A stretch of 45,918 nt of DNA from Candidatus Woesebacteria bacterium. GTDB lineage: Bacteria; Patescibacteriota; Microgenomatia; UBA8517. Position numbers and translations under genes: made by a program. The DNA lies in NCBI GenBank assembly GCA_020061305.1, contig JAGUYM010000001.1, positions 1-45,918 of the forward strand, read 5' to 3'. This document shows, piece after piece, positions 4,891 through 15,537 of the stretch. A model generated the notes under the pieces. That model did no database searches, had not been told where the DNA came from, and saw only the letters and a list, made by a program, of their open reading frames with translations. Within the stretch, counting starts at the first letter, position 1, and the number at the start of each line of letters is the position of its first letter.

Positions 4891-5313
4891 ATGGCAAAAA
4901 AAGTAAAAACAATTGTAAAAATTAATTTAAAAGGAGGAGAAGCTACTCCAGCTCCACCTGTTGGAACTGCACTTGGTCAGCACGGTGTTTCTTTAATGGA
5001 TTTTGTTAAGGAATATAATGACAGGACAAAAGATTTTAAGGGTCAGGTCTGTCCTGCTGTTATTACAATTTTTGAAGATAGAAGCTTTGAGTTCATAATT
5101 AAAAAGGCCCCTGTTTCTGAAATGATTAAGAAAAGGCTAGGTTTAGAAAAAGGTTCAGGAACTGCAGGAAGAGAAACTATTGCAACTCTCTCAAAACAGC
5201 AGGCAGAGGAAATTGCAAAAGACAAAATGGATGATTTAAATACTAAAGATGTGGGCAGGGCAGCTAGAATTGTAGCTGGAACTGCCAGGAGTATGGGAAT
5301 TAAAACAGAATGA
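4891..5313 (+). CDS. rplK: 50S ribosomal protein L11
   Basis: [40 protein letters not shown]. Confidence 0.95.
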
Positions 5314-5858
5314 AAAATCCAACCTTTTACCAATTAGCCGAAGCTGTCGAACTTGTTAAAAAGTCCGATCACTCAAAATTTGATGGAACCATGGAATTAC
5401 ATTTGGTAACCAAAAAAAGTGGTTTAAGTTTTAATCTGACACTACCCCATCCATTTGGAAAACAGAAAAAGGTTGAAGTGGCCAATGATTCTACACTTAA
5501 AAAATTGGCAGAAGGTAAAATTGATTTTGATGTTTTGTTGGCAACTCCTGATATGATGCCAAAGTTAGCTGTGTTTGCAAAAGTTTTAGGGCCAAAAGGC
5601 TTAATGCCAAATCCTAAAAATGGAACTATTATAAAAAATGAGAAAGACGCAAACAAATTTAATGCCAACAGTATGTCTATAAAAACAGAAAAAACTCAAC
5701 CGCTTATTCACACAAGTTTTGGCAAAGTGTCACAAAAAACAGAAGAATTGGTCAAAAACGCAGAAACAATAATTGAAACAATTGGAGGATCAAAACAAAT
5801 AGTCAAAGCCTTTATGAAGTCCACAATGAGCCCTTCAGTTAAACTGCAGTTGAATTAA
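5310..5858 (+). CDS. rplA: 50S ribosomal protein L1, short form
   Basis: [34 protein letters not shown] is L1 signature; 182 aa, shorter than canonical L1. Confidence 0.9.
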
Positions 5859-5937
5859 GTTACCTAAGTAACACTTAATAGTTATAACATAACAAAATAA
5901 CTATTTACTTTTATTATTAAATAGTTTATAAATAATC

Positions 5938-6228
5938 ATGAGTTTCTTTGGTAATTTATTTGGCAGTGGAGGAGGAACAGAAGGTGGATCTGGAGCTTCA
6001 CAAGAAAAAGCACAAAAGCCAATTATTAATCCCAATGAAGAACGAAGTAGAATTAATGCAGCCAAAAATCGTATGCAAGATTATATGGAAAATTCTGGCG
6101 GTTCGCAAGGAAGTACAGAAGCTGTACCAGGTGCAAGTGGGGATGGTAATGTAAGACCCATTTTAACTCTCAATCCAACAGAAAAAAGGCAACCCAAATT
6201 TACAAGAAGGAGTGATACTGGAGCTTGA
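5938..6228 (+). CDS. Hypothetical 96-aa low-complexity protein in the ribosomal operon
   Basis: Open frame MSFFGNLFGSGGGTEGGSG...FTRRSDTGA co-oriented between rplA and rplJ. Confidence 0.55.
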   Translation: MSFFGNLFGSGGGTEGGSGASQEKAQKPIINPNEERSRINAAKNRMQDYMENSGGSQGSTEAVPGASGDGNVRPILTLNPTEKRQPKFTRRSDTGA

Positions 6229-6253
6229 TTTAAAATTCATCTTACTTTATAAT
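6225..6253 (+). promoter_or_regulatory. Candidate sigma-70 promoter for rplJ-rplL
   Basis: TTGATT (6225-6230), 17 bp spacer, TATAAT (6248-6253), overlapping the stop of the upstream ORF. Confidence 0.65.
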
Positions 6254-6303
6254 ACGATTTGTCCATAGAAAGTGTGCACAAAAGTAAGTCGCACTGAGGA
6301 ATT

Positions 6304-6837
6304 ATGAATAAAGTATCAGATAAAAAACAAAAGAAAATTGAGTTGGTTACTAAACTAACTCCTACACTCAGAACAGCTTCATCTGTGGTTTTAGTAAATT
6401 ACACAGGTCTTTCAGTTAAATTACAACAGGAATTAAAATCCAAACTTAAAGAAGTTGATTCAGATATTGTTGTTGTCAAAAATACTTTAATCAAAAGAGC
6501 ATTAGAGTCAGCAAATTTAAAAAATGAATCCATAAATGAAAATGTACTTTCTGGCCAAACAGCCTTAGTAGTTTCAAAAGGTGATAGTATTTCAGCAATC
6601 CAAGTTTTAGGTAATTTTGCCAAAACCAATAACATCCCTCAATTTAAAGTAGGTTTTGTGGATGGAAATTTCTATCAAACTGAAGGGCTAATTAAAATCT
6701 CAACACTTCCAAACAAAGAGGTATTGTATGCCCAAGTTATTGGATCGTTAATGTCTCCAATGTCCGGGTTGGTCGGAACTTTAAATGGAAATATGCAGAA
6801 ATTATTGTATATATTAGATCAAAAAAGCCACAGTTAG
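6304..6837 (+). CDS. rplJ: 50S ribosomal protein L10
   Basis: VLVNYTGLSVKLQQELKSKLKEVDSDIVVVKNTLIKRAL. Confidence 0.9.
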   Translation: MNKVSDKKQKKIELVTKLTPTLRTASSVVLVNYTGLSVKLQQELKSKLKEVDSDIVVVKNTLIKRALESANLKNESINENVLSGQTALVVSKGDSISAIQVLGNFAKTNNIPQFKVGFVDGNFYQTEGLIKISTLPNKEVLYAQVIGSLMSPMSGLVGTLNGNMQKLLYILDQKSHS

Positions 6838-6912
6838 ATAAGCCTTAGGCTATCGAATGTGGCCTCATGAGGTATGTTAAAACATTATCTCATTGAGGGA
6901 GGTGAGTACAAT

Positions 6913-7317
6913 ATGGCAGAAGAAAAAAAATTATCTAAAAAAGTTGAAGAATTAGTTGAGGAAATAAGTAAACTTACAGTACTCGACCTTTCTGAATTAG
7001 TAACCGCACTTCAAGATAAACTTGGAGTGTCAGCCGTTGCACCAGTTGCAGCAGCACCAGCAGCAGCACCAGCTGGCGAGGCAAGCACAGCCGCAGAAGC
7101 AGATGGTGGTGGAACCGTTGTTATGACAGCTTCAGGTGACAATAAGATTGCAGTTATTAAAGCGCTTCGTGAAATTAACCAAAATCTTGGTCTTCAAGAA
7201 GCAAAAGCAGCAACTGAAAACTTACCATTTACAGTAATTGAAAATGGAAAACCAGAAGATGCAAAGGCGGCCGCCGATAAGCTTAAGGCCGCAGGCGCCA
7301 CGGTAGAAGTTAAATAA
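6913..7317 (+). CDS. rplL: 50S ribosomal protein L7/L12
   Basis: Start chosen at ATG 6913 after GGGAGGTGAG; Ala-rich hinge and DNKIAVIKALREINQNLGLQEAKAATENLP. Confidence 0.93.
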   Translation: MAEEKKLSKKVEELVEEISKLTVLDLSELVTALQDKLGVSAVAPVAAAPAAAPAGEASTAAEADGGGTVVMTASGDNKIAVIKALREINQNLGLQEAKAATENLPFTVIENGKPEDAKAAADKLKAAGATVEVK

Positions 7318-7318
7318 T

Positions 7319-7825
7319 TTAATTTCTAATGAGTTCCATTAAATAGGCATTGTGATAAACAGTGCCTATTTTAAACTCATTTCTCATTTCTCCAACAATA
7401 TTAAAACCACAGGATTTATATAAATTAATTGCATTTGTTTGATTTATATTTACAATTAACTTTAATTTAATAACTTTAGAATTCAAAAAGGCTTCTTCAA
7501 CCCTTTTTTCAAACAATATTCTGCCTATTCCCTGTCCCCTATGACTTGGCTTTACATATATACCACTCAAATGAGCTATGTGGGTAAAAACTCTCTTTTT
7601 AGCATATTTGATTGAGCCAATTCCAACTAAATTAGTTTCATCAAAAACCCCATACCACACTTGTTTTTTGTTGGTTAATTGTTTCCTCCAATAATTTTCT
7701 TTTTTATTTTTTAGATTTTCATAATCATCACCAAAAGCCTGAGGTTCTTTTTGAAGCGCCTCAAGTCTTATTTTTTTAAATTCCTCCAAATTATCAAGAT
7801 TTAATTTTTGTAAATTTTTCTGCAT
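7319..7825 (-). CDS. GNAT-family N-acetyltransferase
   Basis: LSGIYVKPSHRGQGIGRILFEKRVEEA...LYKSCGFNIVGEMRNEF. Confidence 0.85.
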   Translation of the reverse strand: MQKNLQKLNLDNLEEFKKIRLEALQKEPQAFGDDYENLKNKKENYWRKQLTNKKQVWYGVFDETNLVGIGSIKYAKKRVFTHIAHLSGIYVKPSHRGQGIGRILFEKRVEEAFLNSKVIKLKLIVNINQTNAINLYKSCGFNIVGEMRNEFKIGTVYHNAYLMELIRN

Positions 7826-10127
7826 TATTTTTAATCTCCTCGTTCATATCAATTACTTCCAAATTAATTCCATTTGGTAAATAGCTAGTATAATCTTTTG
7901 TTGTATCACTGGTTATTACAAAAAGCGTATCCAAATTATTATCTCTATTTTTACTTCCAAAAAACATAATTTCACCTGAATTTTGAGATTTTTGATTTTT
8001 TGAGTTTTTTATGTATGTACTTACCCAATATGTTTTATTGGCAACTACTGGATAAAAACCAAGTTTCTTTTTATAGACAATTAACCCATCACTCAAATCT
8101 CCTCCATATAAATTAGTATCTTGTCCAAACGATACTTTTGCATATCCTTTACCCTTTGCGTGTTCTAAAAATTTAAAATCCATCAAAAGCATATGTTCAC
8201 CCCACCCATAACCAATTCCCAAAATTTTCCCAGTTTCAAAAAACAATTCTCCCCCAACTAATTTTTCATCTTTATACACAAACACGCCTCCAACTTTTTT
8301 ACCTTTATTCACTTTTTCGTCAAACCAATTTTCATTAATCTTTGATTTAGAGTCAAACTTATTACTTAAATATTTCTTATAACCATTTAACCATTTGACA
8401 AAAGTTTGATTGTCAATTTCATCAACTAATTTAATTTCAACACCAAGCTTTAAAGCCTTGTTTACTTGATATCTAATTTTTTTAGAAAAATTAAGACCAT
8501 TACTTATATCTTTTCTCCAGGCAATTTTTGCAGGTCTTCTCATACCCATCCCTTGATCAATGAAAGTATTGACAATACTAACTTTATCTATGTCCTTATG
8601 TTTGACTGCATTTTTTATCCTTTTTACATTCAAAATGTCTATATCTCCGTCTTTTTCTGTACCAGTTTCAACCTCAATTAGACCTAGTTTTTTGTAAATT
8701 AAATCAATTGCTTTGGCATTAGTTGGTAAAACTTTTCCATCCCTATCTACCATTTGTCCCTTCCAAATAAGCCTCAATATTCGCTCATGGGGGTCATACA
8801 CATTACCAGTATTTTTATTTACATCCTCAGTAATTAAAAATTCCCCTTCATTTTTCAAATGCCAGCTTGCATAACCCTCTCTTACAAATTCCAACTTATC
8901 AGCGATTAATTTGTAGACGCCAGCCTTAATTACAAACCTATCAACTGCCGTTTTGGTAAATTTGTTATAAAGCAAAAGTTGACTGGCAACATATTTATTT
9001 TTGTAGGTTTTGTCCATCTTTTCAAAGTCAATTTGATAATCAATACCTAGGTGTTCTAGATTATGAAAAACTTGAAAAGGAATTGCACCCTTTTCCATTT
9101 GAAGCATTAAAATTAATGGGAAAGCGTCAGTTTCTCTTGGGTTACATTCAACTGGCCAAACATCTCCATTTTTGTCAGTAATCAAATCTATTCCAAATAT
9201 TCCTTTATAACCTTCTTTATAAATAAAATCTCCAAACTTTTTAGCAATTTCATCTGCTTGCTTTTGACTATTCTGGCTAAACTCATTTACCACCCAATCA
9301 TGACCGGAGTAAACACCACTCCTAGTTTCAAGCTTTGCTCCAACTTCTGGAATATCTACAAGTTGAGTTTGTATTGACCCCACAAAAGTGCCATATTTAG
9401 TTACACAGCATGGGACACTTGAGGAAATTCCAGTTATAAAAGGTGCCACATTCACGGACTTAATTTCTTTTTCTGTGTCTTTTAGTTTTTCAAATAATTC
9501 AAGTGTTCTTATTTCGTACTTCTTATAATCTTCTTCATTTTCTATAAAAAAGGTTCCCGTCCCACCACCCCAAGTTGCTTCTGCAATTTGGAGAACCACC
9601 TTTTTAACAGCATATTTTTGTTTGTATTCTTCAATTATTTTAAAGTTTAAATCCTTAATTTCATAGTTTTCTCCAGGAATTGTTTTTACTCCAATTTTTC
9701 TTAAAACCTCTTTGAAATATTTTTTGTTTTCAAATTTATCTCTAATTTCTCTTGAATTTCCTACAAATTCATATCCATTTTCCTGACATATTTTTTCAAA
9801 TTTTCCCATTGACTTATAAACCACAAACTTAAATGGTTCTTTAATTTTTTCTAAAAATTCTTTCCCCTTTTTTGAGGTAATAATATTTCCTGGGGTTATA
9901 GGTGTAATTTGTGCATATTTATCAACCTGCTTTACGGAATAAACACTAAAACCGTCTTTTCGGATATATTCATTGTCTTGGCAATTATTAGAAACTAAAT
10001 TAATAAACTTTGGAAAATAAAAATTATTAATAATTCTTGGCCATGCTGATGGCCCAAGGCCCACAAGAAGTGGGGCTTTGGCAATTGCCTTTTCAATCGA
10101 TTCTGGTAGTTTTGGAACTTTTACCAT
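7794..10127 (-). CDS. ATP-grasp domain protein fused to C-terminal FemAB/GNAT-like acyltransferase domain
   Basis: ATP-grasp-type core YKGIFGIDLITDKNGDVWPVECNPRETDAFPL; C-terminal LVGGELFFETGKILGIGYGWGE...GKGYAKVSFGQDTNLYGGDLSDGLIVYKKKLGFYPV. Confidence 0.65.
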   Translation of the reverse strand: MVKVPKLPESIEKAIAKAPLLVGLGPSAWPRIINNFYFPKFINLVSNNCQDNEYIRKDGFSVYSVKQVDKYAQITPITPGNIITSKKGKEFLEKIKEPFKFVVYKSMGKFEKICQENGYEFVGNSREIRDKFENKKYFKEVLRKIGVKTIPGENYEIKDLNFKIIEEYKQKYAVKKVVLQIAEATWGGGTGTFFIENEEDYKKYEIRTLELFEKLKDTEKEIKSVNVAPFITGISSSVPCCVTKYGTFVGSIQTQLVDIPEVGAKLETRSGVYSGHDWVVNEFSQNSQKQADEIAKKFGDFIYKEGYKGIFGIDLITDKNGDVWPVECNPRETDAFPLILMLQMEKGAIPFQVFHNLEHLGIDYQIDFEKMDKTYKNKYVASQLLLYNKFTKTAVDRFVIKAGVYKLIADKLEFVREGYASWHLKNEGEFLITEDVNKNTGNVYDPHERILRLIWKGQMVDRDGKVLPTNAKAIDLIYKKLGLIEVETGTEKDGDIDILNVKRIKNAVKHKDIDKVSIVNTFIDQGMGMRRPAKIAWRKDISNGLNFSKKIRYQVNKALKLGVEIKLVDEIDNQTFVKWLNGYKKYLSNKFDSKSKINENWFDEKVNKGKKVGGVFVYKDEKLVGGELFFETGKILGIGYGWGEHMLLMDFKFLEHAKGKGYAKVSFGQDTNLYGGDLSDGLIVYKKKLGFYPVVANKTYWVSTYIKNSKNQKSQNSGEIMFFGSKNRDNNLDTLFVITSDTTKDYTSYLPNGINLEVIDMNEEIKNNAEKFTKIKS

Positions 10128-11449
10128 TTTGCTTTTACTCTATTTTCCTTTTCAATTTCAGGGCTTATTAAAAATCCTTGTAAATCAGTTCTCCCTATTA
10201 ATATTTGATATCTTAGTAATTTTCTGTCTGCTACAGTTACTTTTGTATCGAGTCTTTTTCCTGCCAATTTTAAACTAGCAAAAATTACTGGTCTTTCCTC
10301 TTCTCCCAAACTACTTAGTTTTTTTCTAGTAGTTATAATTTTATTTTTTCGAAGTAACCCAAGTTTTCTGGCAAGAGCAATATCAATTGCTGACGACCAT
10401 GCTCCAGTGTCTATTTTAGCTAAAAATTTATACCATTTACCATCACCATTTTTAATTTTTACTTCCTCAACAGCTTTAACAATTGGATTCTCCTCTTTAA
10501 ATCTTACCCTATCAACAAATTTTCCAGCAAAAAGTGCTTTTGCAATTTTAATCCCATGCTCTGCATCAATTACTACTAAATCATCCACCCTCTCAAGCCT
10601 TCTTTTAAGTCCTTCCATATTTGCAAGTTGGATTGATAATCCGGGTTGTGCATTTAGTTCAATTACCATAGGTCCTTTTTCAGGATGAATTACCACATCA
10701 ACGCCACAATATCCAAGAGTTGATGCAATTTGAGCCCTAACAGCAGTTTCCAAAATCAAATTCCACTGCGGTATCTTTATCCCGTTTAATTTGCGAAAAG
10801 TACCGGGTTTGAACACAATTTGTCTATTATTTTGTATGGCTTTGGTAGTTATTCCTGTAGCCAAATCAATCCCTAATCCCAATGCTCCCTGATGAAGATT
10901 GGCCCTTCCCTTACTTTCTTTTGTTGGAAGTCTTAGCATTGCCATCATTGGAATTTTATTAAAAATAATAATTCTAATATCTGGTGTCCCCCTATATGCT
11001 AATTTTCTAAAAACTTTATGTCTGCCTACATATTCTTGAATAAAGGCGATATCGGGGTCACTTCCTATTGAATATGCCCCCTCCAAAATATCTAATACAT
11101 GTAACTTCAAATCATCGACTCCAATTTTTTGTTTCTGTGTAGTAATCCACTTTATGTTTTGATTTTTTGGGTTTCGGAGTTTTTTCTTAATTACTATTAT
11201 TCCTTCCCCCCCCAAACCCCTCGATGGTTTAACAGCAAAACTATTTGGTAATTTTTCCCACTTAAAGTTTTCCAGATCGGAGATAGATTTAAATTTAGCT
11301 AAAATTTCCGGATGAAGGATGTTATTCTTTTTAAGGATCTTTGCGGTTTTAAGTTTGGAATTGGCTATCTTTTTACCATCCTTAGTGTTGTACTTTGAAG
11401 TAAAAAGTACATACCTCGAATTTAAACCCAAAATTGAAGATGCTTTCAT
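10121..11449 (-). CDS. RimK-related ATP-grasp ligase fused to retropepsin-like (RimK-associated putative protease, PF05618-type) domain
   Basis: FAVKPSRGLGGEGIIVIKKK, DVVIHPEKGPMVIELNAQPGLSIQLAN (ATP-grasp); C-terminal FLAKIDTGAWSSAIDIALARKLGLL...QILIGRTDLQGFLI (aspartyl-protease-like). Confidence 0.8.
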   Translation of the reverse strand: MKASSILGLNSRYVLFTSKYNTKDGKKIANSKLKTAKILKKNNILHPEILAKFKSISDLENFKWEKLPNSFAVKPSRGLGGEGIIVIKKKLRNPKNQNIKWITTQKQKIGVDDLKLHVLDILEGAYSIGSDPDIAFIQEYVGRHKVFRKLAYRGTPDIRIIIFNKIPMMAMLRLPTKESKGRANLHQGALGLGIDLATGITTKAIQNNRQIVFKPGTFRKLNGIKIPQWNLILETAVRAQIASTLGYCGVDVVIHPEKGPMVIELNAQPGLSIQLANMEGLKRRLERVDDLVVIDAEHGIKIAKALFAGKFVDRVRFKEENPIVKAVEEVKIKNGDGKWYKFLAKIDTGAWSSAIDIALARKLGLLRKNKIITTRKKLSSLGEEERPVIFASLKLAGKRLDTKVTVADRKLLRYQILIGRTDLQGFLISPEIEKENRVKAKW

Positions 11450-12096
11450 TTAGAATTTAATAACTTCCTAAACCTTAGATATTCTGTAAATCTTAAACCT
11501 ATAAATCTTGCTAAAAGGATATTTATAGATAGTGTAACTAAAAGAGTGATTTCAGGATTCATCCAAACTAGGTTTTGGAAAAAAGTGTTTGTAATTAATA
11601 GATATGATAATGTTGCAAGGACAATGGTTTGAAATGATAACGTAAAGGCAGTTTTAAACGATTTACCAAGCTGAATTCTTGTAAAATCTTCAGTCAAAAG
11701 TGCAATCACGAGTACCGGAAAAATTGAAACATCATGAGGTCTTATAAATAATATTGTAAGTACTCCCATTGCTACAAACCACAAAATGGTTGCCATTCTG
11801 GGAAGATATTGAAGTCTTAGTTTTAATTTTCTAGTTATAAACCTGACCAAGGTTGAGATTGAAACGGTTACAACAAATAAAAATACTCCAAGAACTGGGC
11901 CAATTGCCACAAATGAAAAGGCAAGAGCAGCAGGAAGAAAAATACCAAACCCCCTAACTCCAACAATCTGTCTAACGGCAGCAATTAAGGTTGCAACAAT
12001 CGGTAAAAACAAAAGAAGCAATATGGTGTTAACGGAAACACCCCCTGAAACGGCGTAACCAATAGCATTTTGCAAAAAATTAAGTTGAAAATTCAT
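11446..12096 (-). CDS. 7TM domain protein of the type usually fused to an inactive transglutaminase
   Basis: 216-aa polytopic protein, RQIVGVRGFGIFLPAALAFSFVAIGPVLGVFLF...; next to the RimK-like ligase as in known neighbourhoods. Confidence 0.7.
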   Translation of the reverse strand: MNFQLNFLQNAIGYAVSGGVSVNTILLLLFLPIVATLIAAVRQIVGVRGFGIFLPAALAFSFVAIGPVLGVFLFVVTVSISTLVRFITRKLKLRLQYLPRMATILWFVAMGVLTILFIRPHDVSIFPVLVIALLTEDFTRIQLGKSFKTAFTLSFQTIVLATLSYLLITNTFFQNLVWMNPEITLLVTLSINILLARFIGLRFTEYLRFRKLLNSK

Positions 12097-12355: not shown

Positions 12356-12757
12356 TTATCTCTTCAAATAGAGGAAAACCCCCATGGCAACCATGGCCAA
12401 GATGAATACGAGGGCGGGGGTAACCACCCAGTTAAATGCCCTGGCATTTATTGTATTCGCCTCGGCGTTTGTCCTGTTCACCTGTGCAAAGCCCATATCC
12501 GTTTCTGGATTTTCCCCCTCGGGCTGCACCACGCCAATGATCTGTGTGTCGGGAGCCCCATCTCCGTTTTTATCCGCCGGTAAATTACCGACGAATGAAC
12601 CAGCCAGCCCAACCACCACAATGCATGCTACCGCAAGCATCATCATTACGATTCCATACTTGCTCCGAAAAATCAGAGCAAGCAACCTAATAAGTAGGTA
12701 CAGGGAAATGATTACCAAAAGTAAAGTTGGTATGGTACCGAGATCTACGCTCCTCAT
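12356..12757 (-). CDS. Hypothetical small membrane protein
   Basis: 133 aa with about three TM helices; AGGAGG Shine-Dalgarno just upstream. Confidence 0.7.
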   Translation of the reverse strand: MRSVDLGTIPTLLLVIISLYLLIRLLALIFRSKYGIVMMMLAVACIVVVGLAGSFVGNLPADKNGDGAPDTQIIGVVQPEGENPETDMGFAQVNRTNAEANTINARAFNWVVTPALVFILAMVAMGVFLYLKR

Positions 12758-12826: not shown

Positions 12827-13573
12827 CTAAAATCCATCTTCTCTGAGCCAAAATGCCCAAAAAAGATAAATTGTGGTTACAAAGGACAGATAGACCGCCC
12901 CAACCTGCCACCAAGTATTTGTAAAGCTGTTAAGCTTTACCACCAGAATCGGTAGTAAAACTGTCAATATTGTTAAACGGACAGCCTGCTTCCCAGCAAA
13001 TCTGATAGTGGTCATGACCCCTTTTTGTCTCATTCTTGCCCATGTGGCAATTTTGAACTTTTTAAAGGTTATCAACCACCACCAGCAACCAATTGTCCCC
13101 ACCGCGACTCCAACAATCCAAAGGTTGAAGTCGATCAACAAAGAATATCCCGCCGCATAAACAATTAGGAATAGCGAAGACTGGCGATGACTAAATTCCG
13201 CCGAAAACAATCGGACTGAAAATGGTGCAGCGCCAATCACCAAGACGGCAAAAACAGTTGGCGACACGGGTGTCCGATCCAAAAAAATAATGTTCAGTAA
13301 TTTTCCCCCCAGAATAAATAAATACAACAAGAGAGAAATCAAACCAACTACAACAGTAAAAGTCTTGATATTTTGGAAATTTGAAAAAACAAAAATCCAA
13401 AAGCGCCGAGTAGCAAAAATCACCACCCCCAAAATTATTGGGATTGTCACCCATTTTACAACATTTTCATAACCCCACTGTATAGACATGGCAAAAGTTG
13501 CTAATGCCACGATTGCCATACCAACACCAATCAATGCTGATAAGGTTTTGCTCTTTTGGTTTTCTTCAGACAT
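12827..13573 (-). CDS. Hypothetical polytopic membrane protein
   Basis: 248 aa, multiple TM helices; AGGAGGATGAA upstream of ATG. Confidence 0.75.
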   Translation of the reverse strand: MSEENQKSKTLSALIGVGMAIVALATFAMSIQWGYENVVKWVTIPIILGVVIFATRRFWIFVFSNFQNIKTFTVVVGLISLLLYLFILGGKLLNIIFLDRTPVSPTVFAVLVIGAAPFSVRLFSAEFSHRQSSLFLIVYAAGYSLLIDFNLWIVGVAVGTIGCWWWLITFKKFKIATWARMRQKGVMTTIRFAGKQAVRLTILTVLLPILVVKLNSFTNTWWQVGAVYLSFVTTIYLFWAFWLREDGF

Positions 13574-14055: not shown

Positions 14056-15537
14056 TTAGTAAGTGTATTTATTCTCTAAATATTTAATATTCACGCTTGG
14101 GTCAAATTTCATTTTATTTTTCCTTAACAAATCTTTTAATGTATATGTACTTCCATATCTATGAATTTTGTTTTTTAACCACTTTTCTACTTCTTGATAC
14201 CGATTATTACCAATTCCTTCACTGCTTATTTTTTCTTCCCACTGACTACCCAAGAATGTTCCCATTGAATAAGTAGGAAAGTAACCAACACTACCGTGTG
14301 CCCAATGAATATCTTGCAATACCCCTTCTTTATCCGTTTTAGGAGTTATTCCCAAATAATCTTTCATTTTAGTATTCCAAATTTCTTGTATGTCATTAAC
14401 TTTTAACTTTCCTTCAATCAATCCTTTTTCAATTTCAAACCTTAGCGCTATATGCATGTGGTATGTAACTTCATCTGCCTCTATCCTCAGTAAACTTGGT
14501 TTTACAAGATTTAAGTAAGAATAGACATCATCAACACTTAAATCGTTTTTATTTACCAAACTTCTAATATCTTTAATATACTTTTTGATAAACTCCTTAC
14601 TTCTGCCTATATGGTTTTCCCAAAATCTACTTTGGCTCTCATGTATTACAAGGCCACTTCCTCCTGCAATTGGAGTCATGTTTAGTTTGTCATCATATTG
14701 CATATCATATAGACCATGGCCAAATTCGTGGACAGTTGCCATTAGACTTCTCGCAAAATCTGTTTCGTTATACCAAGTAGTTATTCTAGTATCTTGGCTA
14801 TTAAATGAAATCGTAAATGGATGACTACTAACATCAAGCCTGAAATTACCCTCTCTTCCATAACCACTCCATAAATCTTTTAATACTTTTTCATTTAAGG
14901 CAATCATTTTATTTTTATCATATTTTTTACTCTCAAGAAAATGTGTTGGTTTGTAGTTTGGTGAAGTAACAATTTTATTTAGTAGCGTCTTTAAAGGTGG
15001 TAATGCTACATCAAAAAATTTAGTTACATCTTTTGAAGTTAATTCTTCTTCATATAAATCAAGAAGTGCATCGTATGGGCTTTCCTCGTAACCTAAAAGG
15101 TCTGCTAACTCTTTATTTTTTTGAAAAATTTTTTCTAAATATGGTTTAAACGAGTTAAAATCATTTTTTAACTTAGCATCAGCCCAAACAACAGTCGCTT
15201 TGTTTGTTAGTATTTCAAATTCTTCTAAAAATTTACTTGGTACTTTTTGATATAACTTTAAAGACTGAAGCATTATTCTAACAACTCCCTTTTCATAGTC
15301 ATTTAAGTCTTTTTCCTTGTCAGCTTTATTTATTAAAGAAACAAATTCCTTGTCTAAAAACTTTTTTTGACGGATTGTAGATACGCGGGCAAGAGCTTCC
15401 CCTCTAAAGTTAGCTGCCATTTTAGGCATATATGTTTCTAAATCCCAACTTGCAAGTCCTGATAAATAAGATAAACTCCATAAATCTTTGTAGTAATCTA
15501 AAATTTTTAAAATTGTGGAGTTTTTAAAATACAACAT
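14056..15537 (-). CDS. M32-family carboxypeptidase (carboxypeptidase Taq-like)
   Basis: TVHEFGHGLYDMQ HExxH motif and overall M32 pattern (GGSGLVIHESQSRFWENHIGRS; HWAHGSVGYFPTYSMG). Confidence 0.9.
   Translation of the reverse strand: MLYFKNSTILKILDYYKDLWSLSYLSGLASWDLETYMPKMAANFRGEALARVSTIRQKKFLDKEFVSLINKADKEKDLNDYEKGVVRIMLQSLKLYQKVPSKFLEEFEILTNKATVVWADAKLKNDFNSFKPYLEKIFQKNKELADLLGYEESPYDALLDLYEEELTSKDVTKFFDVALPPLKTLLNKIVTSPNYKPTHFLESKKYDKNKMIALNEKVLKDLWSGYGREGNFRLDVSSHPFTISFNSQDTRITTWYNETDFARSLMATVHEFGHGLYDMQYDDKLNMTPIAGGSGLVIHESQSRFWENHIGRSKEFIKKYIKDIRSLVNKNDLSVDDVYSYLNLVKPSLLRIEADEVTYHMHIALRFEIEKGLIEGKLKVNDIQEIWNTKMKDYLGITPKTDKEGVLQDIHWAHGSVGYFPTYSMGTFLGSQWEEKISSEGIGNNRYQEVEKWLKNKIHRYGSTYTLKDLLRKNKMKFDPSVNIKYLENKYTY

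Follow-up and report, generated by a model that had tools for sequence, protein, structure and literature searches.

What does a heavily reduced bacterial genome do with an operon that combines ATP-grasp ligases, a protease and a membrane protein, and is such a gene set a local invention or a member of a known family? The question is raised by the window analysed here, the whole stretch of 45,918 nucleotides (positions 1 to 45,918, forward strand) of contig JAGUYM010000001.1 [GenBank: GCA_020061305.1] from a Candidatus Woesebacteria bacterium of the candidate phyla radiation (CPR), whose genome has 0.66 Mb and is 97% complete. Four minus-strand open reading frames (ORFs) are present at 7319-12096, where the initial annotation had placed four overlapping genes, and their ends overlap by 4, 7 and 32 nt. 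They encode, in this order, a protein of the seven-transmembrane (7TM) kind, an ATP-grasp ligase fused to a retropepsin-like protease, a second ATP-grasp protein with a FemAB-like domain and a GNAT acetyltransferase. In this work we show that the operon represents the CPR branch of the Rlo/Rim amidoligase systems known from proteobacteria and is no one-off, and we consider it rather probable that its cytosolic ligase adds glutamates to a membrane-held acceptor, with a fused eraser that is replaceable by MATCAP, a metallocarboxypeptidase.

A 7TM protein with an inactive transglutaminase, a RimK-like ligase and a putative protease were reportedly grouped as a peptide-modification system by Iyer et al. 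in 2009, who are also said to have considered acetyltransferase-like amidoligases. The proteobacterial RimK-like/7TM-transglutaminase/retropepsin operon is now named rloABC, with mutant phenotypes described (PMC12239564). In Pseudomonas aeruginosa RloB and RloC affect antibiotic tolerance, biofilm and cell shape, rlo mutants have cell-shape and beta-lactam phenotypes, and the loss of the proteases is rescued when RloB or RloC is lost as well, so that ligase, 7TM protein and proteases act in one pathway in this species (PMC12239564). The rlo proteases cleave polyglutamate; RloA of P. aeruginosa is secreted, its catalytic residue is D48, and K46, R114 and R137 coordinate polyglutamate (PMC12239564). 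The second precedent is RimK/RimB: PMC11957791 reports that RimB stimulates poly-alpha-glutamate synthesis by RimK, and that a RimBK hybrid with the protease at its N-terminus, found mainly in Flavobacteriales and Rhodobacterales, was purified and proteolytically active.

The ligase domain of the window fusion matches TIGR02291 (rimK_rel_E_lig) with 254.6 bits (1.1e-75; curated cut-off 314.2) and the fusion matches PF14397 at 1.8e-61; with TIGR00768 (rimK_fam) the ligase reaches 43.3 bits, short of the cut-off of 143.4. The ATP-grasp metal-binding residues E264/N266, together with K32/K74, are conserved in 82-83 of 83 fusions. The retropepsin part matches PF05618 (2.8e-7, above the cut-off) and the RloA3 model NF052264 (2.7e-5), and on sequence it carries the D[TS]G motif of clan AA retropepsins within a retropepsin-like domain. 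Its DTG at 347-349, with D347 aligned with RloA as the predicted catalytic residue, and K345, R386 and R409 correspond by alignment and spacing to the polyglutamate site of P. aeruginosa RloA; Legionella RloA, in which the D, +66, +89 spacing is identical to that of P. aeruginosa, aligns with the same window residues. AlphaFold2, run on the single chain, models the fusion with good confidence (pLDDT 89.7, pTM 0.69), the nearest PDB folds being RimK and ArgX, while a profile search also matched the solved structures 9g58/9g59, deposited as 'putative ATP-dependent zinc protease', the family to which the RimB/RloA retropepsins belong. The ligase-retropepsin architecture proposed in the initial annotation, and the presence of the DTG motif and of the ATP-grasp Glu/Asn pair in both ligases (E327/N329 in the second), were thus borne out. 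A simple hydropathy scan found no signal peptide or membrane segment ahead of the retropepsin, nor any membrane segments or signals in the operon enzymes other than the 7TM protein, therefore both writing and erasing are expected to take place in the cytosol.

The fusion shares with RimK/RimB and RimBK a glutamate-ligase fold and a cytosolic retropepsin with a polyglutamate pocket in one protein, and it differs in that RimBK has its protease N-terminal on a RimK-type ligase, whereas in the CPR protein an RloC-type ligase (1-295) is followed by the retropepsin (305-434), and in that the CPR fusion is paired with a 7TM protein, a partner not seen for RimBK in the consulted passages of PMC11957791. 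With this hybrid known, protease first, neither the novelty that had been claimed for a ligase and protease in one protein nor the label of an unprecedented fusion could be kept.

The 7TM protein passes PF14402 (7TM_transglut) with 2.8e-22 and 79.9 bits (cut-off 25), and the RloB model NF052267 matches it at 2.5e-12 with its C-terminal part only; by sequence it is a homologue of the C-terminal half of RloB, without the transglutaminase domain. Six hydrophobic segments were found by the hydropathy scan. The transglutaminase family PF14400 gave no Pfam match in the window protein or in five CPR 7TM proteins scanned, the positive control, Legionella RloB, matching at 1.1e-44. The CPR proteins come in three forms: a short one of about 210-230 aa (the window type), one with a short N-terminal extension, and a long one of about 500 aa. 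The three long ones among the five scanned have a PKD ectodomain where the transglutaminase would be, and the long-form N-terminus consists of this PKD domain and an unknown region, unlike the transglutaminase of proteobacterial RloB; a transglutaminase N-terminus on the long CPR proteins was accordingly rejected. The missing transglutaminase half, which had been noticed and taken for new, is therefore real, and it is common to the five CPR proteins scanned.

We surveyed 287 genomes across the CPR phylum, counting the ligase at a TIGR02291 E-value below 1e-40. PF14402 and TIGR02291 were each present in 87/287 genomes and the two sets were identical (Fisher p about 7e-76, without correction for relatedness). 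In 84/84 loci uncut by a contig end the 7TM gene is immediately followed by the ligase gene, with a median gap of 3.5 nt and within 150 nt in 81 of them, so the order of these two genes recurs, as a neighbourhood survey had been expected to show if the proposal was right. The C-terminal retropepsin is nearly universal on the CPR ligase, the exceptions being two f51 loci, where the model no longer matches, and a few truncated or split loci. The system is essentially single-copy and kept across 39 family-level groups; around the window, 43 of the 56 genomes searched have the fusion, the window's genome counted. What varies is the slot downstream, filled by RimK-like, cyanophycin-synthetase-like or PRK06524-like ligases or by a MATCAP/QEGLA metallocarboxypeptidase, with up to six ATP-grasp genes per cassette. 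In the window's family it usually holds one to three RimK-like ligases followed by convergent rplL, and the sole such ligase tested, that of L056, passes the RimK-family cut-off. This survey disposed of the candidate view of a unique four-gene invention.

The suspected kinship to the proteobacterial neighbourhoods is supported by homology of the core parts to rloABC (PMC12239564): an ATP-grasp homologous to RloC, an RloB 7TM protein and an RloA-kind retropepsin with the same polyglutamate-binding residues, in tight linkage. The CPR branch differs in having the protease fused to the ligase C-terminus without a signal peptide, whereas RloA is secreted; in a 7TM protein without a transglutaminase domain, RloB having an inactive one plus seven transmembrane helices; in extra ligases or a metallocarboxypeptidase downstream; and in sequences that score under the curated cut-offs of the Rlo models.

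The metallocarboxypeptidase is of the MATCAP/TMCP type (QEGLA, PF08014/TIGR02421): the same domain, with HExxxH and E/QEGLA motifs, is fused to or lies beside the CPR ligase, and in L054 it matches PF08014 at 9.8e-48 and TIGR02421 at 3.4e-54. About 25 loci have it attached to the C-terminus of the fusion and about 20 more encode it in a neighbouring gene of its own; 51/87 genomes with the system have it versus 12/200 without (p = 1e-21, overstated since the genomes are related). It was not found in the window's genome at the sensitivity of this search, which was positive in 63/287 CPR genomes. The human members differ in acting on tubulin tails, where TMCP1/2 shorten polyglutamate side chains and remove polyglutamate from tubulin (PMC10499314).

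The state of the retropepsin was scored at D347, K345, R386 and R409 (RloA D48, K46, R114 and R137). All four were intact in 39/39 fusions without a nearby MATCAP, the window's among them, some of these genomes having a more divergent MATCAP elsewhere; they were intact in 5/8 fusions with an adjacent, 2/14 with a convergent and 0/22 with a fused MATCAP. On a maximum-likelihood tree of the ligase domain about four branches show the decay, each of them within a lineage that bears MATCAP, and MATCAP presence changes about eleven times. In relatives fetched later, nearly all from lineages without MATCAP at the locus, residue retention was as expected: DTG or DSG is kept in all readable fusions and the other three residues in all but L181, which has W at R386. 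Since the retropepsin tends to decay when MATCAP joins, the pattern suggests that both do the same job, and since TMCP1/2 shorten polyglutamate, the two enzymes indicate one and the same product. The retention of dead retropepsin domains agrees with a second role, since RimB stimulates polyglutamate synthesis by RimK (PMC11957791). We tentatively propose, holding it not quite as probable as its opposite, a modular CPR writer-eraser glutamylation machine at the membrane, in one polypeptide, in which the retropepsin was repeatedly replaced by a MATCAP/TMCP-family metallocarboxypeptidase and dead retropepsins were kept as ligase partners; if true, this would give bacteria a counterpart to the TTLL/carboxypeptidase pair.

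The f30 loci (L074-L089) keep DTG, have mostly lost the K345 and R409 equivalents and are followed by a MATCAP gene in convergent orientation; they may represent an intermediate stage of the swap. Two larger proteins near the operon in the window's family (L182:4521-6179 and L176:8789-10609) contain a partial MATCAP-like stretch, scoring 52 and 33 bits, respectively, by a home-made model, and PF08014 matches the former at 1.2e-7.

From the gene content, conserved neighbourhood, folds, residue conservation and protease swap pattern observed by computation we infer a scheme whose substrate (glutamate), acceptor, 7TM role, order of steps and chemistry are conditional. The soluble cytosolic fusion would use ATP to add glutamate to a peptide or protein acceptor, the product most likely being poly-alpha-glutamate chains by analogy with RimK. 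The 7TM protein would be a membrane station holding, delivering or exporting the acceptor, and the fused retropepsin, as a homodimer, would trim or remove the chain and might also stimulate the ligase, as RimB does RimK. In the window's genus the second ATP-grasp-FemAB-like acyltransferase and the GNAT probably extend or cap the product; in other lineages this place would be taken by RimK-like or cyanophycin-synthetase-like ligases, or by MATCAP/QEGLA taking over the eraser role. We favour this reading because the core parts are homologous to rloABC, whose proteases cleave polyglutamate (PMC12239564); because the 7TM and ligase sets are identical (87/287) and the genes adjacent; because all 39 loci without a nearby MATCAP retain the catalytic Asp and the three basic residues; because decay (about four branches) is confined to MATCAP-bearing lineages and MATCAP is enriched with the system (51/87 versus 12/200); because the downstream ligase of L056 passes the RimK-family cut-off; and because RimB stimulates RimK and the RimBK fusion exists (PMC11957791). 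The suggestion made from the start, an ATP-grasp amidoligase system linked to the membrane and carrying its own protease, is likewise supported.

Several points weigh against it. RloA is secreted and the window protease must be cytosolic, so the rlo topology is not transferable, the CPR topology being closer to RimK/RimB. The RimBK hybrid gave no RpsF glutamylation (PMC11957791). The ligase scores under the curated TIGR02291 cut-off, which no CPR match in the 87 genomes reached, and the substrate of that family is itself putative. The swap rests on about four independent losses, noticed and counted on the same loci, with a non-significant and underpowered paired sign test (p about 0.25), and MATCAP presence is not always accompanied by retropepsin decay.

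The second ATP-grasp protein bears on the alternatives. The N-terminal half of this 777-aa protein matches NF005096/PRK06524 at 3e-38 (131.2 bits; the biotin carboxylase cut-off of 684 is unmet), folds closest to biotin carboxylase-type ATP-grasps and has its metal-binding residues conserved, which upholds the ATP-grasp assignment. For the FemAB/GNAT-like domain that had been assigned to the other half, only a distant relation can be kept: Pfam gave no match, PF02388 included; hhalign against CPR FemAB (PF02388) proteins gave Prob 91 with four sequences, falling to 19.5 when just the window pair was used, and it matched two free Fem-like proteins with Prob 96. The AlphaFold2 model is good in the first half only, with moderate confidence for an alpha/beta region at about 550-665 and low confidence beyond, and its Foldseek search, dominated by the ATP-grasp half, says nothing on the FemAB-like half. 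The free GNAT was correctly recognised as the last gene (PF00583, 2.9e-16, above the cut-off), and it reaches none of the listed NCBIfam equivalog cut-offs. The ATP-grasp-FemAB protein and the GNAT occur together only in the window and its genus mate (L034/L172), so that the second ligase-acyltransferase, once counted as part of the system, is a one-genus variant of the variable slot and not core. Elsewhere in CPR loci the PRK06524-like family is a free gene or joined to the ligase-protease; L046:6911-9673 and, probably, L060:3218-5779 carry ligase, retropepsin and PRK06524-like ATP-grasp in a single chain of 854-921 aa. In L163, of a different lineage, a free Fem-like gene lies downstream of 7TM, fusion and MATCAP genes.

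The ligases and the FemAB-like enzyme might instead assemble a short peptide or bridge, with a lipid-linked or peptidoglycan precursor as its base; the 7TM protein would export it and the proteases would edit it. We think this unlikely, even with the FemAB-like domain, the cassettes of up to six ATP-grasp genes and the cell-shape and beta-lactam phenotypes of P. aeruginosa rlo mutants (PMC12239564) speaking for it, since the FemAB relation is distant, with just two lineages showing it next to the operon, and the conserved protease pocket is of the polyglutamate protease type. Also on its side are the penicillin-binding protein (PBP) genes of f22/f53 loci, which share the strand of the operon. 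The order there (L037-L049, L055, L059, L103, L105, L111, L117) is yebC-ruvC-7TM-fusion-PBP1 (transglycosylase/transpeptidase), with every gene in the same orientation, which hints at a role in the envelope. The peptidoglycan-like substrate of the initial annotation has to be qualified to this extent, as peptidoglycan-bridge chemistry has no specific support and the conserved protease residues favour polyglutamate handling.

It is less likely still that the target is the C-terminus of a cytosolic protein (a ribosomal one, for example), glutamylated by the ligase in the manner of RimK, with the 7TM protein as a sensor switching ligase versus protease. RimK/RimB offers a precedent (PMC11957791), protease and ligase are both cytosolic, and rplL adjoins the operon in the window, in 19/20 further relatives (one of them the genus mate) and in 22 loci of the main set; this adjacency, however, may be inherited or positional, as in many lineages the operon adjoins yebC-ruvC or lacks a ribosomal neighbour, and the PKD ectodomain of long 7TM proteins and nearby PBP genes in some lineages indicate the envelope. 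The rplL gene is convergent in the window's family (window 4891-7317, L032-L034, L172-L190); in family f30 and a small number of others it shares the strand of the operon.

A small ATP-grasp-modified peptide (a RiPP/graspetide-like natural product) as the outcome would agree with the ATP-grasp-rich cassettes and with graspetide clusters reported from CPR bacteria (PMC8939145), but is very improbable given an RloC-type ligase, about one copy per genome across 39 family-level groups, a pattern not typical of biosynthetic clusters, and no precursor gene recognised between or beside the four genes among ORFs of at least 80 aa. That the second ATP-grasp is a biotin carboxylase-like metabolic enzyme in accidental adjacency, as its best NCBIfam name and best folds would have it, is hardly credible at 131 versus 684 bits, far under the curated cut-off, for a family fused to the ligase-protease in L046, probably in L060, and its neighbour in several other lineages.

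Homologues of the core parts, and a ligase-retropepsin fusion of the opposite order (RimBK), had been described before. To the extent that this could be checked, the novelty lies in the CPR branch with its C-terminal fusion, in a transglutaminase domain lost or replaced, in cassettes with several ligases and in a retropepsin that MATCAP has apparently replaced. Our literature search, which did not cover Iyer et al. 2009, found no description of the CPR system. The published survey, in which 96% of RloB matches were in Proteobacteria (PMC12239564), does not reveal this system, although about 30% of the CPR genomes sampled here, heavily reduced as they are, have kept it. With writer and eraser in one soluble CPR protein both half-reactions are assayable from a single purification, and the natural variants (live retropepsin; dead retropepsin plus MATCAP) predict which product is made and removed.

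Table 1 Features of the operon and the adjoining rplL gene in the window
Feature	Coordinates	Strand	Remarks
7TM membrane protein gene	11446..12096	-	216 aa; PF14402 match
Fusion protein gene (ATP-grasp ligase + retropepsin)	10121-11449	-	442 aa
Fusion ligase domain, RloC/TIGR02291 type	10565..11449	-	residues 1-295
Fusion retropepsin-like protease domain	10148..10537	-	residues 305-434
Predicted catalytic aspartate D347 codon (DTG)	10409..10411	-	aligned to the DTG aspartate of RloA from Legionella and Aeromonas
Second ATP-grasp + FemAB-like protein gene	7794-10127	-	777 aa
Second ATP-grasp domain, PRK06524-like	8658..10127	-	residues 1-490 of 777-aa protein
FemAB/GNAT-like acyltransferase-type domain (distant relation)	7797..8630	-	residues 500-777 of 777-aa protein
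Free GNAT acetyltransferase gene, RimI-like at distant level	7319..7825	-	168 aa; PF00583 match
rplL	6874-7317	+	convergent with GNAT gene, last of operon

Over the operon an Rfam scan gave zero matches, and in a promoter/terminator scan promoter-like sites were no commoner than chance. Two putative membrane proteins without a significant Pfam match are encoded 5' of the 7TM gene (12356-12757 and 12827-13573, minus strand); their genes were not found in the other loci examined, the genus mate L034 included. Further upstream, on the same strand as the operon, lies a carboxypeptidase Taq (M32) gene (14056-15537), which was considered as a stand-in for MATCAP and rejected, as it was not found beside the operon in the other loci. 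In a plasmid collection the fusion query had three matches, each to the ligase part only, and a scan of named genomes for the fusion returned five close relatives, all of them CPR.

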